Assembly (NCBI GenBank): GCA_029557535.1
Contig: JAKQII010000249.1
Location: forward strand, 1 to 44,743
DNA: 44,743 bases
Reading direction: 5' to 3'
Source: Acidobacteriota bacterium
GTDB taxonomy: Bacteria > Acidobacteriota > Blastocatellia > Pyrinomonadales > Pyrinomonadaceae
How positions within the stretch are numbered: the stretch's first letter is position 1; each line of letters begins with the position of its first letter. Position numbers and translations under genes: made by a program. The notes beneath the pieces were generated by a model. That model was not told the DNA's origin and made no database searches. It saw nothing but the letters and a program-made list of their open reading frames with translations. Below are positions 35,640 to 44,743 of this stretch, piece after piece.

Positions 35640-35679
35640 GATCCAAAATCCAAAATCGAAATTCCAAAATCGAAAATCA
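35640..35679. repeat. Degenerate heptamer-type repeat (CCAAAAT / GATTTTG) over a stop codon
   Basis: The plus strand reads as tandem CCAAAATC/CGAAAATC-like units. On the minus strand the run begins inside the TGA stop codon of the HEAT-repeat gene (35677-35679). It resembles the short tandem heptamer repeats described from cyanobacterial genomes in form, though not necessarily in origin. Confidence 0.7.
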
Positions 35680-38600
35680 CTTCAGCGGCACGCTGAGCAA
35701 ATGGCCCTCATAGGCGAAATAGGCTTTGTTTTCGAGTTCATCGACCCACATCCGGACGCTGGTGAACTCGATTTTCGGGAGTTTCAGCATCGGGCGGAAC
35801 GTGAGCGTGCGCAGCGTGTACGTGCCGATCTCGGTGTATTCGCCGTCCGCGTTTGGAACTGCCGCCCAAAATTCGTCAGGTTTGCCCGTGACCGGTTGCA
35901 GCGGACGGTACGATTGCTGGGCGAGCGGTGCGAGATCGTTCTTCATTTCGACGAATGCGCCGGTTTCAGCATCGAGGAAATAGTATTTTTCAAACGTCGG
36001 TTCGGGGATCGCGAAGCCATCGTTCTCGAATTCCTCGTCCTCGTACGTATAGGCCGTTCCAAGCAGGATCTTGTTCTGGGCAGGCACGAACGCGATCGGG
36101 ACGAGCGGCGGATAGCCCGAATAGTTGATCGGGAACTCCTTATTCGTCAACAGGTTGACGCGGACGACACGCGGACCGTATCCATCCTGATCGCCATCGC
36201 CGAATTTTTGCGCGACGACCCATCGTCCGTTCGGCGTTACCACGGGCGATGCGTAGAAGCCCGTTCTGATCCGCGTCATCTGACCGCGGACGACCTTGTA
36301 CAGGCCTTCCGGGTCGGATCGGATCTCGACCGTCGCCGTACGGGCTTTCCACTGTTCGCTGTCGGGCTGAACGGCCGCCCGGTCACGATCGGGTATGAAA
36401 CTGAAGCCCGGTGGCTGCGGCGCCGCCGCGATCGGCCGTCCGTTCCCGAACCGGAACCAGCCCAATCCCTCGTACTCACGCGCGACACGCCGTTTTTTGC
36501 TCCGTCTCTCAAATTCCTCGTAGTTAAGGTTTTCGGCCTCCTGTTCCGATTCGTCTTGGGCGTTGAGCTCGGCCTCGACCTGCTTTCTCCTGACTGTGTT
36601 GTCGGTCAGGACCCGGAGATCAGCTCCGTTCTTCCACACCGTCACGGCGCTCAGGTTCTTGTCTTCAAAGATGATCTCGAGGCCCTTAATCGAATCCTGC
36701 ATGTAGTAGCGAAGCTTCGCCGACGGACGCTTCATCTCGTCGAAGATCGCGCCAAGCTTTTCGAAAAAGGGCGGAAGCGGGTAGCCGTTCGTGAAAACGC
36801 GCCGGCCCCCGGCCCGTCCGAGCATCAGAAGTTCCGCGTCGTTGGCGCAATACTCGCCGCAGTTTGATAGGAACGGCGGAAGATCATCGACATGTGCATC
36901 GGCCAGGTATCCCTTGAGCCGCTCGAATTCGTTCGTCTCGAGCGTTCGTTCGCGATAGCGCGCCGGATCTTCTTCCCAACTGAAGACCGCACGGTCGCTG
37001 TAGATGCGAACGAAATTCTTGTGGTATGAATAGACGCCGAGCAGTTCCGGCTTCTCGATCACCTCCTTCTGAAGCCTTTTCTCGATCTTGTCGAGCTCTT
37101 CGTAGTCACGGTCACCGTAGGCTTCGGGAACGCCCGGAATGCTCTGGAACAGCTCGTAAAGCGGATATTCGGTCTCACCCTTTCCGGCAAACGTCGCCCG
37201 CGCTCCGAGAACCATCGCTTCGTTCGGATGACGTGCCAGGACGATCGATCGCGCCTCGGCCGAATCTTCCGAAATCAGGTAATTTTCGGCAGTGGCCGCC
37301 AGCATTTTGTCCGGACTGTTAAGCAATTGCGCGACGTTGCGGACCGGGAGTTTCGCCCTGATCATGCGGGCGCAGGCGAGCATCGCGGACTTGGTCTCGT
37401 TGTTGTCCCCGCCGATGATCGCGTCGTATTCGCCGTTCTGTTCGATCACGCAGGCCGACAGGCCGACGGCGAACGGCACGCCGCCGCGCATGTCGTAAAC
37501 GTCATTGATCTGTTTTTCGCGGATCTCGGCCCGCCGTGTCAGGATCTTGAGAACGTCGTCGAGTTCTCCGGTTCCGTTCTTTATCCCGTGCATTAGCACC
37601 GCGTTGACCGCCGGTCCCTTCCAAATGCGGAGGACGTCGCGCATTTTGACGGCAACGTCCGGTTCGCGTTTCTCAATGACCTCGATCCGATCGATCAGCG
37701 CCGCAACGAGATCGTTGGTCGGCTCCTCGATCTGAAGCAAAGCGTTGCCGAGAAGCGATCTGAGTTCCTCGGGATCGACGACACCGGGCCGGGCCGGGGT
37801 CGTTTGGAACACCGTGACCGACGATCTGTTGACGGCCATCATATTGACATTCGCGATCGAAATATCGTCGGTATCGACATCCTTGGTCGCTGCGTTGACG
37901 GCGGCATTCGATTGGCGCTCAAGCTCTTCCCGTTTCGAGTTGTTCCGGGCCATGTGCTCGATCGCGTCGACCTCTTCCGATGCCGAAAACCCGCCGCAAT
38001 CGACCATCGCCTTGACGACCTGCTGCCGCTGCCACGATTCGAATTCGGGTAGAACCTCGCGAAGCACGGGGACCGCGCGCGGATCGCGCTGTGCACCGAG
38101 CGACTCGACAGCGGCGAGCACGAACGACCGGAATTCGTATGAATTACGGAACTCGGCAACATCGGGAACGGCCGTATTGACATTCGACCTCGAAGTCGGC
38201 GTCTGGGTCGGCGCGAGCAGCGCCCGGTTGTTGATGACTGAAATCAGTCCGGGCACCGCTTCGGGGATTCGATAGTCCTTGATCGCGGTGATCAGCGCCC
38301 GGCGGGAACCGGCGACGTCGTTCGCCCAACTCGGATCCTCAAGCCACGGCAGCATCGCCCGAACTATCTCTTCCTTTTTTATCGATCCGCTAGTCGTCAG
38401 ATTCCTGATCGCCGCACTCCTGACGGTTTTGCTGCTGCTTCCGAGCAGTTCGATCATCCGGTCGGTGTACTTGCCTTCGGGCGAATATCTGATGATCGTC
38501 GTCAGGCCGGTATAGGTCTGACCGTTGACCTGGAGATTGTGGAGCGTTTCGTCGCCGAGCAACGTCATGTACCACTCGTCGCGGCCGGGGAAATCACCGC

Positions 38601-39399
38601 CCTGAACGAGAGCGTCCATGGCGAGGTCGCGATTGCCCGGCTTCTGACTTTTGTCTTCGACGATCGCTTTCAATTCGTCGCGCCATTTCGACGCCTCGAG
38701 CTGATCGTTCGTGTCGATCGCATGCTGGTAATACGCCCATCGGGCCAGTGTCTGCGAGACCGGCTGCGACGTCGCGTTGACCATCCGATTGAGAAGCGGT
38801 TCGGCGCGGTCCCAGTCGACCTTCGCGAGCGCGAGAAGTTCGGTCTGGTTCGTGACGTAATTGTTCTCGTCGCGGACGGTCTGGGCGACACGCACGAGGT
38901 CGGTGCTGAAGTAAGGACTGTTGTACGTCAGCCACTTTTTTACTGACTCGCGCCAGTCGCGTTCGAGCTTGCGGTTGGCCAGCTCGTCGTCGTAAAGGCG
39001 CTTGACGAAGTCGATCGCGTCCTTGTTTCCCTTGAACGTATCGAGAAATTCGGTAAGTCGCGACGGATCATCGGCGATCGCCGACATCAGTCGCTCAACC
39101 GTCCGTTCCGACGGTTTCGGGATGTAGTTCTGTGTCTGATCGGTCTGGCTCTGGCGGAGCCAGTAAGCCATCAGGTCCTCGATCGGCGCGTCGTCGGGCG
39201 GCGGTTTGGTCGGGTCGTAGAATTCGGGCGGCCGGTTCTCGGAAGTGACCTTGAAATAGGGATTCGGCGGCGCCGGGGCTGGAAGTTTGCTGAGCTTTTC
39301 GAGCAGGTTCTCGCCGGCCTTTGACCGCGGCGAGAACGCGATGAGTCCAACGACCAGGAGCAACGCACAGAACGCGACCGACGTCAGGAACCGTTTCAT
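35677..39399 (-). CDS. Large secreted HEAT-repeat-like protein with C-terminal beta region
   Basis: ATG 39399 (GAGGA nine bases upstream) gives 1240 residues. A signal peptide covers about residues 1-29 (MKRFLTSVAFCALLLVVGLIAF, then SKAGEN). A Pro-rich segment follows, then a long alpha-helical region (residues about 60-800) with paired-helix units typical of HEAT/armadillo solenoids (RTVRSAAIRNLTTSG, DYRIPEAVPGLISVINN, QRDPRAVPVLREVLPEFESWQRQQVVKAM). The last 200 residues look beta-propeller-like (FYASPVVTPNGRWVVAQKFGDGDQDGY, LTNKEFPINYSGYPPLVPIAFVPAQNKILLG). I do not recognise a named family and see no catalytic motif. A periplasmic or outer-membrane scaffold is a guess. It stands alone, about 295 bases from the radical SAM gene. 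Confidence 0.8.
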   Translation of the reverse strand: MKRFLTSVAFCALLLVVGLIAFSPRSKAGENLLEKLSKLPAPAPPNPYFKVTSENRPPEFYDPTKPPPDDAPIEDLMAYWLRQSQTDQTQNYIPKPSERTVERLMSAIADDPSRLTEFLDTFKGNKDAIDFVKRLYDDELANRKLERDWRESVKKWLTYNSPYFSTDLVRVAQTVRDENNYVTNQTELLALAKVDWDRAEPLLNRMVNATSQPVSQTLARWAYYQHAIDTNDQLEASKWRDELKAIVEDKSQKPGNRDLAMDALVQGGDFPGRDEWYMTLLGDETLHNLQVNGQTYTGLTTIIRYSPEGKYTDRMIELLGSSSKTVRSAAIRNLTTSGSIKKEEIVRAMLPWLEDPSWANDVAGSRRALITAIKDYRIPEAVPGLISVINNRALLAPTQTPTSRSNVNTAVPDVAEFRNSYEFRSFVLAAVESLGAQRDPRAVPVLREVLPEFESWQRQQVVKAMVDCGGFSASEEVDAIEHMARNNSKREELERQSNAAVNAATKDVDTDDISIANVNMMAVNRSSVTVFQTTPARPGVVDPEELRSLLGNALLQIEEPTNDLVAALIDRIEVIEKREPDVAVKMRDVLRIWKGPAVNAVLMHGIKNGTGELDDVLKILTRRAEIREKQINDVYDMRGGVPFAVGLSACVIEQNGEYDAIIGGDNNETKSAMLACARMIRAKLPVRNVAQLLNSPDKMLAATAENYLISEDSAEARSIVLARHPNEAMVLGARATFAGKGETEYPLYELFQSIPGVPEAYGDRDYEELDKIEKRLQKEVIEKPELLGVYSYHKNFVRIYSDRAVFSWEEDPARYRERTLETNEFERLKGYLADAHVDDLPPFLSNCGEYCANDAELLMLGRAGGRRVFTNGYPLPPFFEKLGAIFDEMKRPSAKLRYYMQDSIKGLEIIFEDKNLSAVTVWKNGADLRVLTDNTVRRKQVEAELNAQDESEQEAENLNYEEFERRSKKRRVAREYEGLGWFRFGNGRPIAAAPQPPGFSFIPDRDRAAVQPDSEQWKARTATVEIRSDPEGLYKVVRGQMTRIRTGFYASPVVTPNGRWVVAQKFGDGDQDGYGPRVVRVNLLTNKEFPINYSGYPPLVPIAFVPAQNKILLGTAYTYEDEEFENDGFAIPEPTFEKYYFLDAETGAFVEMKNDLAPLAQQSYRPLQPVTGKPDEFWAAVPNADGEYTEIGTYTLRTLTFRPMLKLPKIEFTSVRMWVDELENKAYFAYEGHLLSVPLK

Positions 39400-39480
39400 A
39401 AAGACCAATCCTCGATGGCGGAATTATCCGACTTATAGAACGAAAAGGCAAAGAATTATTTTGGTTACGGCTTGCCGGCA

Positions 39481-39694: not shown

Positions 39695-41722
39695 TTACGC
39701 GGAAGCAGCTTCCTTTTTCTTCTCGCGCTTGATGCCGCCGATCTGGACGAGGTTGTCGCCCTTGATGTTGTTCTTGTCGAGCACCATCTGCTGATAAAGC
39801 TTGCGCATCATCTGCATTTCCTCGGCGGCCGTTTTCGGACCTTCCATGTCCGGCTTGTTCGGACGCGCCAGGTCGACCTCGTTGAGCTTCAATCCGTGCG
39901 ACTTGTCCTCGAGCGGGACTTCCTTGCCGCGGGCAAAGATCTCGTGACGGCCGTGGTCCTTGTACCACTGCGCAACCGTCGCGTTCTGGTGCATGTGCTC
40001 GATGATGTTTCTCCAGCCAATGCCCGTGTTGTAAGCGCAGAACGAAATTTCGCCTTCCTGCGTGCCGTACGGGATGATGCACATCTCGGTGCGGCGGAAG
40101 TCGTAGTTGAACAGATCCTGGAACCACATTCCGGCGATGAACAGGAAGTTCCAAGGATCGGACCGGCGTTTTTCGATGTCTTCCATCGTCCGCGACCCGT
40201 CGACCTTTCCGTAGCTCTTGCCCGAAAGTCCGAATGATTTGTCGAACTTTTTGAAGATGCCCGCGAGCGTCAGGCTCTGCGGAGCGCCGTACGGGTTGTA
40301 GTTCTTGAGCAGCGCGAGGCCCATCATGATGTTCGAGAACCATTTGCCGCGGTTCGTGTCCGTGATGTGCTGCATGTCGGTAACGAGTCCCTGGATGTTC
40401 AGGAACTGCGGAACCGGCGCCATCTCGTTCGTTTCCTTATTGATCATCATCGCCGTTCCGACGCCGCAGTTCGGGTGGCAGCCGCACGAAACCTGGCCCC
40501 ATTCGGCGTCCGGTCCGTGAACAACGTCCGCGAAATCGGCGAAAGCGCCCATCAGCGACAGCGGGAACCAGTCGCGCGTCGGTTCGGTGATCCCGACCTG
40601 TTTCTGAACGTCCAGCGCCAGATGCGACAGCGTGTAGCGCTGCTGCAGACGGCGCTGTTCGGTGATGTGCTCGTCGCGACCGGTGAACGAAACCGGCTGG
40701 AACGCGATGAACGAAATTTTCTTCGGGTTCTCGAGCGCGAACCTGACGATCGTGCCGACCTGGTCGTTGTTGACGCCGTTGACGAGCGTCGTCACGAGAA
40801 TGATGTCGACGCCGGCTTCGTGCAGGTTGTTGATCGCGCGGAGCTTGACGTCGAACAGATTGCCGATCTGCCGGTGCGAGTTGGCGTCGTTGCCGATGCC
40901 GTCGAACTGGAGATAAACGAAACGGAGACCTGCGTCGGCCGCTTCACGGCAGAATTCCTTTGATTTCGCGAACTCGATGCCGTTGGTCGCGGCCTGGACC
41001 GAGTTGTAGCCGACCTTGCGCGCATAGCGGACCGCCTCGATGAAGTACGGCGAGAGCGTCGGCTCGCCGCCCGAGTACTGCACCGACATCTGGCGGCGCG
41101 GTTTGATCGAGATCGCGTTGTCGAGGATTTCCTTGACGTCCTCAAAGCTCAGCTCGTGGACGAATCCTACCTGGTTGGCGTCCATGAAGCAGGGGTCGCA
41201 CATCATGTTGCAGCGGTTTGTCAGGTCGACCGTCAAAACGGCGCCGCGGCCGTACTTGATCGACGAACTGCCGTGATTGTGGAGCTGCTCGTCGTTGTGC
41301 GAGCGCATGTCGCGTCCGGGGAAGAGCGATTCGATGTGCTTCAGGAATTCAGAGTCGATCGCCATCAGATCTTCGAAATGGCCGTGTTCCGGACAATCCT
41401 TGATCATCCAGATCTGGCCGTCGCGTTCGACGATCTGCGCCTTCACTTCGCCGACCTTTTCATTGATCAGCGTCGAAACATCGCGTTTGCCGCTCAGGAT
41501 CTCCTCGCGTGCCTCAATGACACAGTTCGGACAGAGCGAATCGGTGGTGCGCGGAAATCCGAGCGTCGGCTTCGATTTTTCCCACGATTTCTGGATCGGC
41601 TTGTCAGCCCACTTCGGTGTGAACGACGGGTTCGGTTTGTACTGGTTAACGGCCTTAACTGCATTGAATAATCCACTTGCAACGTAGGTCAGACCTTTTT
41701 CAAAGTGTTTTACGGGTCTCAT
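39695..41722 (-). CDS. Radical SAM protein of the COG1964 / tetraether-synthase (Tes/Mss)-like family
   Basis: ATG 41722, after a GGAGAAGAG site, gives 675 residues. Several Cys groups are visible. C-P-N-C (64, 67) and C-P-E-H-G (110) form the rubredoxin-like metal site typical of COG1964. CNMMCDPC (171, 175, 178) is the radical SAM Cx3Cx2C motif, followed by the SAM-binding YSGGEPTL. CGCHPNC (413, 415, 419) and Cys548/Cys562 could bind auxiliary clusters. This set matches the plan of archaeal tetraether synthase (three 4Fe-4S clusters plus a rubredoxin-like iron), which couples lipid tails. Bacterial relatives are proposed to make membrane-spanning diabolic-type lipids. The lipid function here is inferred; another C-C-coupling radical SAM role is possible. 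The C-terminal 110 residues end in a Lys/Ala-rich tail. Confidence 0.8.
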   Translation of the reverse strand: MRPVKHFEKGLTYVASGLFNAVKAVNQYKPNPSFTPKWADKPIQKSWEKSKPTLGFPRTTDSLCPNCVIEAREEILSGKRDVSTLINEKVGEVKAQIVERDGQIWMIKDCPEHGHFEDLMAIDSEFLKHIESLFPGRDMRSHNDEQLHNHGSSSIKYGRGAVLTVDLTNRCNMMCDPCFMDANQVGFVHELSFEDVKEILDNAISIKPRRQMSVQYSGGEPTLSPYFIEAVRYARKVGYNSVQAATNGIEFAKSKEFCREAADAGLRFVYLQFDGIGNDANSHRQIGNLFDVKLRAINNLHEAGVDIILVTTLVNGVNNDQVGTIVRFALENPKKISFIAFQPVSFTGRDEHITEQRRLQQRYTLSHLALDVQKQVGITEPTRDWFPLSLMGAFADFADVVHGPDAEWGQVSCGCHPNCGVGTAMMINKETNEMAPVPQFLNIQGLVTDMQHITDTNRGKWFSNIMMGLALLKNYNPYGAPQSLTLAGIFKKFDKSFGLSGKSYGKVDGSRTMEDIEKRRSDPWNFLFIAGMWFQDLFNYDFRRTEMCIIPYGTQEGEISFCAYNTGIGWRNIIEHMHQNATVAQWYKDHGRHEIFARGKEVPLEDKSHGLKLNEVDLARPNKPDMEGPKTAAEEMQMMRKLYQQMVLDKNNIKGDNLVQIGGIKREKKKEAASA

Positions 41723-41950
41723 ATAAGTTCTCTTCTCCAAACAATGACTGGAAACTGTTAAGCATCGGGCGCAACTTCGGTGATTCTCGCGCGTGCGCTC
41801 CATATAGAGTTCATGACTGCATAGCAAGGACTGTGCCATTCGGTAGCGCTTCGTATAAATCGTTGCCGCAGCACGAGTTACGGTGTGAATCGCGGAGCAT
41901 CGGCGGTAGGTTCCGGGCGGGTCAATATGACACTGATTGCCTCAAATCCA

Positions 41951-44368: not shown

Positions 44369-44743
44369 TGGAATGCCAACGGCCTGGAATGCCAGCGGCC
44401 TGCAATGCCGGCGGCCTGGAATGCCAGCGGCTTGGAATGCCAGCGGCCCGGAACGCCGGCGGCCTGCAATGCCAGCGGCCTGGAATGCCAGCGGCCTGGA
44501 ATGCCGGCGGCCTGGAATGCCAGCGGCCTGCAATGCCAACGGCCTGCAATGCCAGCGGCCTGGAATGCCAACCGCCTGGAACGCCGGCGGCCCGGAACGC
44601 CGGCGGCCTGGAATGCCAACCGCCTGCAATGCCGGCGGCCTGGAATGCCGGCGGCCTGCAATCCAGCGGCCTGGAACGTCGGCGGCCTTGGAACGCCAGC
44701 GGCCTGCAATGCCAGCGGCCTGGAATGCCAGCGGCCTTGGAAC
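44369..44743. repeat. 16-bp minisatellite, 23 full copies, cut by the window end
   Basis: The unit TGGAATGCCAGCGGCC repeats head to tail from 44369 to the last base. I count 23 full units plus a partial. Variation is confined to a few positions: base 3 (G/C), base 6 (T/C), bases 10-11 (AG/GG/AA), base 13 (G/C), and rarely base 1 or 16. One unit is a base short (44657-44671) and extra T bases lie at 44688 and about 44737. All three minus-strand frames stay open over much of it, because 16 is not a multiple of 3 and the unit lacks stops; I do not take these as genes. There is no spacer, so it is not a CRISPR array. Its true length is unknown. Confidence 0.95.

Follow-up and report, generated by a model that had tools for sequence, protein, structure and literature searches.

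A Widespread Acidobacterial Branch of the Tetraether Lipid Synthase Family Lacks One Iron–Sulfur Cluster Site and Is a Candidate Iso-Diabolic Acid Synthase

Introduction

Branched tetraether lipids are widely used paleothermometers, and acidobacteria are their best-known makers; to our knowledge, the tail-coupling enzyme of acidobacteria is unproven. A bacterial membrane-spanning lipid synthase, Mss of Thermotoga maritima, was reportedly described by Sahonero-Canavesi in 2022.

The closest described system is archaeal tetraether lipid synthase (Tes, or GDGT-MAS; MJ0619, PDB 7TOL and 7TOM), in which the C-terminal cluster, a methionine, and a tyrosine form the site that joins saturated tails, with an intermediate on the cluster sulfur, whereas the role of the N-terminal cluster was left open by the structure paper (PMC9433317). 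Mss reportedly has the same catalytic architecture as Tes (PMC13274423), and papers citing the work on it state that it was shown to work for T. maritima (PMC11604127). Acidobacterial Tes homologs have already been proposed for iso-diabolic acid (PMC8941075, PMC10087280), but according to PMC11868695, the coupling activity of bacterial Tes homologs is not confirmed.

Here, we describe the fold, metal ligands, active-site residues, phylogeny, and distribution of a Tes-like protein family, designated family F, starting from a gene in a 44,743-nt window (the entire contig JAKQII010000249.1). The host genome (4.77 Mb, 98% complete) belongs to the Pyrinomonadaceae, subdivision 4. What we add to the earlier proposals is the loss of a cluster, the split between canonical and widespread groups, and a sole-candidate argument, none of which was found in the literature searched, a body that did not include the original Mss study.

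Gene, domains, and predicted fold

The gene runs from an ATG at 41722 to a stop at 39695–39697 on the minus strand. The original prediction, made from the DNA letters, was of a 675-residue Tes-like radical SAM protein rich in cysteine motifs, and the ORF, its length, and every listed motif were found as described (C64-PN-C67, C110-PE-H113-G, C171-NMM-C175-DP-C178, C413-G-C415-HPN-C419, C548, and C562). Another ATG lies upstream in the same open frame, at 41839; this start was rejected in favor of the 675-aa form because the alignment of homologs begins at residue 1 of the latter and a GGAG motif precedes it (Table 1).

The protein matched the Pfam Radical_SAM domain (PF04055; E-value 4.6e−20, 72.9 bits against a cut-off of 29.5) and an N-terminal zinc ribbon (PF23545; E-value 2.2e−14). 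The best curated model was that of tetraether lipid synthase Tes (NCBIfam NF045702), with a score of 322 bits, below the curated cut-off of 450 bits; most of family F scored about 300–350 bits. Its closest solved relative was the GDGT-MAS of M. jannaschii (7TOL, E-value 1.1e−62), and orthologs with 57–90% identity occurred across the phylum. Because of these Pfam, Tes-model, and 7TOL matches and the phylum-wide orthologs, the ORF cannot be ascribed to chance.

An AlphaFold model of the 675-aa protein, built from 71 family sequences, had a mean pLDDT of 89.5 and a pTM of 0.89, with the last 19 residues disordered. When this model was used as a Foldseek query, 7TOM and 7TOL were returned first (E-value about 1e−37; next match, 6e−9), and VIA-align superposed it on 7TOM with a Z-score of 43.4 at 2.5 Å over 476 of 498 residues, the next fold being MoaA (Z 20.1). 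The overall fold is thus predicted to be that of Tes, with the Cx3Cx2C motif and partial TIM barrel typical of the radical SAM superfamily, and the overlay on the Tes structure that had been suggested as a check came out in favor of the original prediction.

Table 1. Features of the family F gene, with positions in the 44,743-nt window
Feature	Position	Strand	Basis or remark
Complete gene, Tes-like radical SAM protein (family F), 675 aa	39695..41722	−	
Putative ribosome-binding site (GGAG) of the 675-aa form	41735..41738	−	12 nt before the 41722 ATG, by eye
N-terminal amphipathic helix, residues 3–26, candidate membrane anchor	41645..41716	−	predicted helix
Rubredoxin-like iron domain, C64-x2-C67-x42-C110-x2-H113	41384..41533	−	four ligands 54/54
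Former N-terminal [4Fe-4S] cluster site, now HxHG(S/T)S (residues 148–156) instead of Cx3Cx2Cx2H	41255..41281	−	
Radical SAM cluster motif, C171-x3-C175-x2-C178	41189..41212	−	Pfam match 40736–41224
SAM-closing loop QPVSFTGR, residues 342–349 (Tes Gln268, Ser271, Arg275; PMC9433317)	40676..40699	−	
C413-G-C415-H-P-N-C419	40466..40486	−	C419 corresponds to a Tes C-terminal-cluster ligand
Active-site and C-terminal-cluster region: M532 (labile Met439 in Tes), C548, Y552 (Tyr459 in Tes), C562	40037..40129	−	numbering of PMC9433317
C-terminal extension, residues 563–675	39698..40036	−	alignment

Metal sites and active-site residues

Residues were mapped in an alignment of 54 family F proteins, 6 sister paralogs (designated Q), 30 canonical acidobacterial Tes (>450 bits), and MJ0619; the PDB chain numbering of Tes equals the paper numbering plus 20 (PMC9433317). 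The original prediction had proposed that the cysteine groups are the cluster ligands of Tes. This held for the rubredoxin-like Cys3His site (C64, C67, C110, and H113), for the SAM cluster (C171, C175, and C178), and for the C-terminal [4Fe-4S] site with its three cysteines and labile methionine (C419, C548, C562, and M532), all of which were present in 54/54 family F members. The counterpart of the active-site Tyr459 of Tes, Y552, was likewise invariant (54/54), and the SAM-closing Gln, Ser, and Arg are shared with Tes.

The proposal failed at the N-terminal [4Fe-4S] cluster. None of its ligands (C73, C77, C80, and a His in the paper numbering) remained in any of the 60 aligned F and Q proteins; their positions are occupied by a gap, H150, S153 (A in one family F member), and, usually, K156. 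The complete Tes cofactor set implied earlier, a rubredoxin iron with three [4Fe-4S] clusters, is therefore not encoded, and family F has three predicted metal sites instead of the four in Tes. The metal content is read from the ligands, since the AlphaFold model was built without cofactors. All 30 canonical acidobacterial Tes and nearly all TrsS-like relatives keep the N-terminal ligands, indicating that the loss is a derived trait of F and Q.

Family F also differs from archaeal Tes, with which the 675-aa protein shares 28–30% identity, in several gained elements. The rubredoxin loop contains 42 residues (48 in three members) compared with 20 in canonical Tes, an insert of 22 residues. An additional cysteine, C413, was found in 54/54 family F members and 6/6 Q proteins and is specific to them against nearly all canonical Tes; the neighboring C415 and C419 were present in 53/54 and 54/54 family F members, respectively. 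An N-terminal amphipathic helix, absent in canonical Tes, occurs in family F, and in 96% of 52 members its hydrophobic moment exceeded that of shuffled sequences (p<0.05). The larger size and extra C-terminal region predicted at the outset were borne out, as the tail after C562 measures 74–152 aa in family F but 20–56 aa in canonical Tes. Q shares both the enlarged loop and the lengthened tail.

Phylogenetic position

In a maximum-likelihood tree of 63 proteins (rooted at the midpoint only, with some long branches), F and Q together fell inside the Tes group with 100/100 support on a branch of length 1.06, and their nearest neighbors were two canonical acidobacterial Tes. The original prediction would have been undermined by placement in a radical SAM clade with a non-lipid function; instead, F and Q lie on the Tes branch, outside such clades. 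Family F is thus a derived offshoot of Tes. The canonical acidobacterial proteins belong to the same superfamily and occupy the closest branch, but they share 29–36% identity with family F, are 459–648 aa long, and retain the N-terminal cluster.

TrsS-like proteins (NF045646) resemble family F in their rubredoxin and SAM motifs and general layout; however, they mostly keep the N-terminal cluster, their C-terminal cluster, Met, or Tyr is varied or lost, and they were separated from F and Q with 100/99 support. Five of them (L261, L262, L263, L275, and L276) retain the rubredoxin motif and those of the N-terminal and SAM clusters but have lost the cysteines of the C-terminal cluster. As for Q, this second paralog is about 53% identical to family F, shows the same cluster loss, and was found at L046, L047, L048, L049, L054, and L096; the host genome has no copy.

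Distribution among acidobacteria

F or Q was detected in about 143 of the 297 sampled acidobacterial genomes, or about half (counted by hand from listed E-values), compared with 34/297 for canonical Tes (>450 bits). Family F was present in every one of the 32 genomes sampled from the host's family and class (19 from the same family and 13 more from the class). Among genomes from named records, 33/35 had F or Q; these had been gathered through an acidobacterial 16S pattern scan and are mostly of subdivisions 1 and 4, with no named Holophagae. Acidobacterial Tes homologs therefore divide into canonical proteins and a second group that lacks one cluster, is far more widespread, and is single-copy in many strains. 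In the phyla of the Paracoccus and Flaviramulus records, family F was found in 0/595 genomes at 1e−60, in a search run without a positive control. Two records with titles naming Verrucomicrobia and Acidimicrobiia (L140 and L146) show the 16S signature of acidobacteria, and their F genes are at 65–68% identity; we rejected them as non-acidobacterial carriers, since they are probably mislabeled MAGs, and in the case of L146 the F copy has the place and score of the copy in the acidobacterial genome G183.

The host genome contains no second Tes-like gene (next match 63 bits, against 321 for the target). Family F was also found in Edaphobacter lichenicola, Granulicella mallensis, Terriglobus albidus, and Occallatibacter savannae, with no other gene of the Tes or TrsS type turning up at 1e−30 in G. 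mallensis X5P3 or T. albidus. Some other carriers do have canonical Tes or TrsS-like genes.

This distribution bears out the expectation that the gene occurs in groups that make iso-diabolic acid. Within the host's own family and class, the acid is made by cultured Pyrinomonas, which contains more than 40% membrane-spanning and ether lipids together (PMC4644332), and by Chloracidobacterium (PMC12816986), a presumed carrier by genus match. Outside that class, it amounts to 27–49% in the Occallatibacter clade (PMC12935467) and 12–30% in Edaphobacter (PMC11354219). A survey cited in PMC13274423 places iso-diabolic acid in subdivisions 1, 3, 4, and 6 of the seven tested. The match between gene carriage and producers is a correlation.

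Proposed reaction and alternatives

These results suggest that family F is a Tes-branch enzyme that links two saturated lipid tails through their ends, a reading we regard as likely, the tails being most likely iso-C15 acyl chains of phospholipids and the product membrane-spanning iso-diabolic acid. This is the same reaction as that proposed for Mss. By analogy with Tes, from which the cluster-bound intermediate is taken, the SAM cluster would generate a 5′-deoxyadenosyl radical that abstracts hydrogen from one tail at its terminal carbon. A sulfur of the C-terminal [4Fe-4S] cluster (C419/C548/C562, with labile Met532) would hold this carbon. A second SAM cleavage would create a radical on the other tail, which would attack the held carbon to form the C–C bond. 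The new N-terminal helix may dock the enzyme to the membrane, and the reaction would proceed without the N-terminal [4Fe-4S] cluster. No gene for a DUF2229 (PlsA/Ger-type) protein was found in the host genome; an ester-bound product is therefore the simplest expectation.

Coupling is supported by the overlay on 7TOM, by the position of F and Q inside the Tes branch, and by the invariance of the SAM, rubredoxin, and C-cluster ligands, M532, and Y552 in family F, whereas the C-cluster, Met, or Tyr is variable or missing in TrsS-like relatives. It is further supported by the lack of a second Tes-like gene in the host and of any other Tes/TrsS-like match in G. mallensis X5P3 and T. albidus, by the presence of the gene in iso-diabolic acid producers, and by its closeness to canonical tes in three genomes. 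Because the M439A variant of Tes stays active (PMC9433317), conservation of the methionine is evidence for a shared site but not for an essential step. Against coupling are the missing Tes cofactor site, the score of 322 versus 450 bits, and the position of the gene outside a lipid operon. The score below the cut-off, together with the branch length of 1.06 from canonical acidobacterial Tes and the absence of N-cluster ligands in 60/60, make it highly improbable that family F is a true Tes equivalog performing the archaeal-type reaction with the full cofactor set, even though its fold and most ligands match. An assignment to TrsS-like radical SAM proteins with a non-lipid function, for which a match to NF045646 at 209 bits could be cited, is also very unlikely: this score is far under the 490-bit cut-off and below the Tes score, TrsS-like proteins branch elsewhere, and they differ at the active-site Met and Tyr. 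We rejected that assignment on score and tree.

A more serious, though still unlikely, possibility is that family F acts on lipids without coupling them, carrying out another tail modification (cross-linking, methylation, or ring formation), while iso-diabolic acid comes from a distinct enzyme of the Mss type. Such modifications are carried out by other radical SAM enzymes that act on lipids; loss of the N-terminal cluster, the additional C413, and the lengthened tail point to altered biochemistry; and the presence of F alongside canonical Tes in some genomes means that their jobs may differ. Some Acidobacteriota reportedly contain homologs of Mss (PMC11868695). T. maritima, a known Mss owner, gave no match to the Tes model at 1e−40 or the TrsS model at 1e−30, so a distant Mss-type enzyme could be missed in the genomes scanned. 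In addition, the canonical Tes or TrsS-like genes of some carriers could make the acid instead. However, the C-cluster with Met and Tyr that Tes uses for C–C coupling is retained throughout family F, and F is the sole Tes/TrsS-like gene found in two cultured subdivision 1 strains.

We favor coupling, and family F, the best candidate in many acidobacteria, is probably their iso-diabolic acid synthase. We also lean, with less assurance, toward the broader proposition of a phylum-wide acidobacterial branch of Tes that shed one of three [4Fe-4S] clusters, gained a membrane-docking helix, and serves as the iso-diabolic acid synthase of soil acidobacteria. If this is true, C(sp3)–C(sp3) lipid coupling can occur independently of the N-terminal cluster, and family F provides a natural experiment on the purpose of that cluster in Tes. 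Strains such as G. mallensis and T. albidus, with no confusing second Tes- or TrsS-like gene found, offer a clear knockout target.

Genomic neighborhood

No lipid operon was found around the target gene in the neighborhoods inspected, where initial gene predictions at GC-rich loci could not be relied on. The only recurrent neighbors were SurE, PCMT, and DedA/VTT, which form a local run in some members of the host's family, and canonical tes, which is paired with F in a few cases. The pairs came from three genomes, presumably of Acidobacteriaceae, in which canonical tes lies 0.2, 3.4, or 5.7 kb from the F gene on the same strand (L088, 6817–11000, 245 bp apart; L089, 6261–13491; and L090, 5990–15480). 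In several relatives within the host's family, surE directly follows the target gene; in the window, a 1,243-aa HEAT-repeat protein (35677–39408, minus strand) lies between the target gene and surE-PCMT-VTT(DedA). At the other end, a 16-bp unit (TGGAATGCCAGCGGCC, 85% matches) is repeated about 23 times at positions 44369–44742, in an array that extends up to the contig end.
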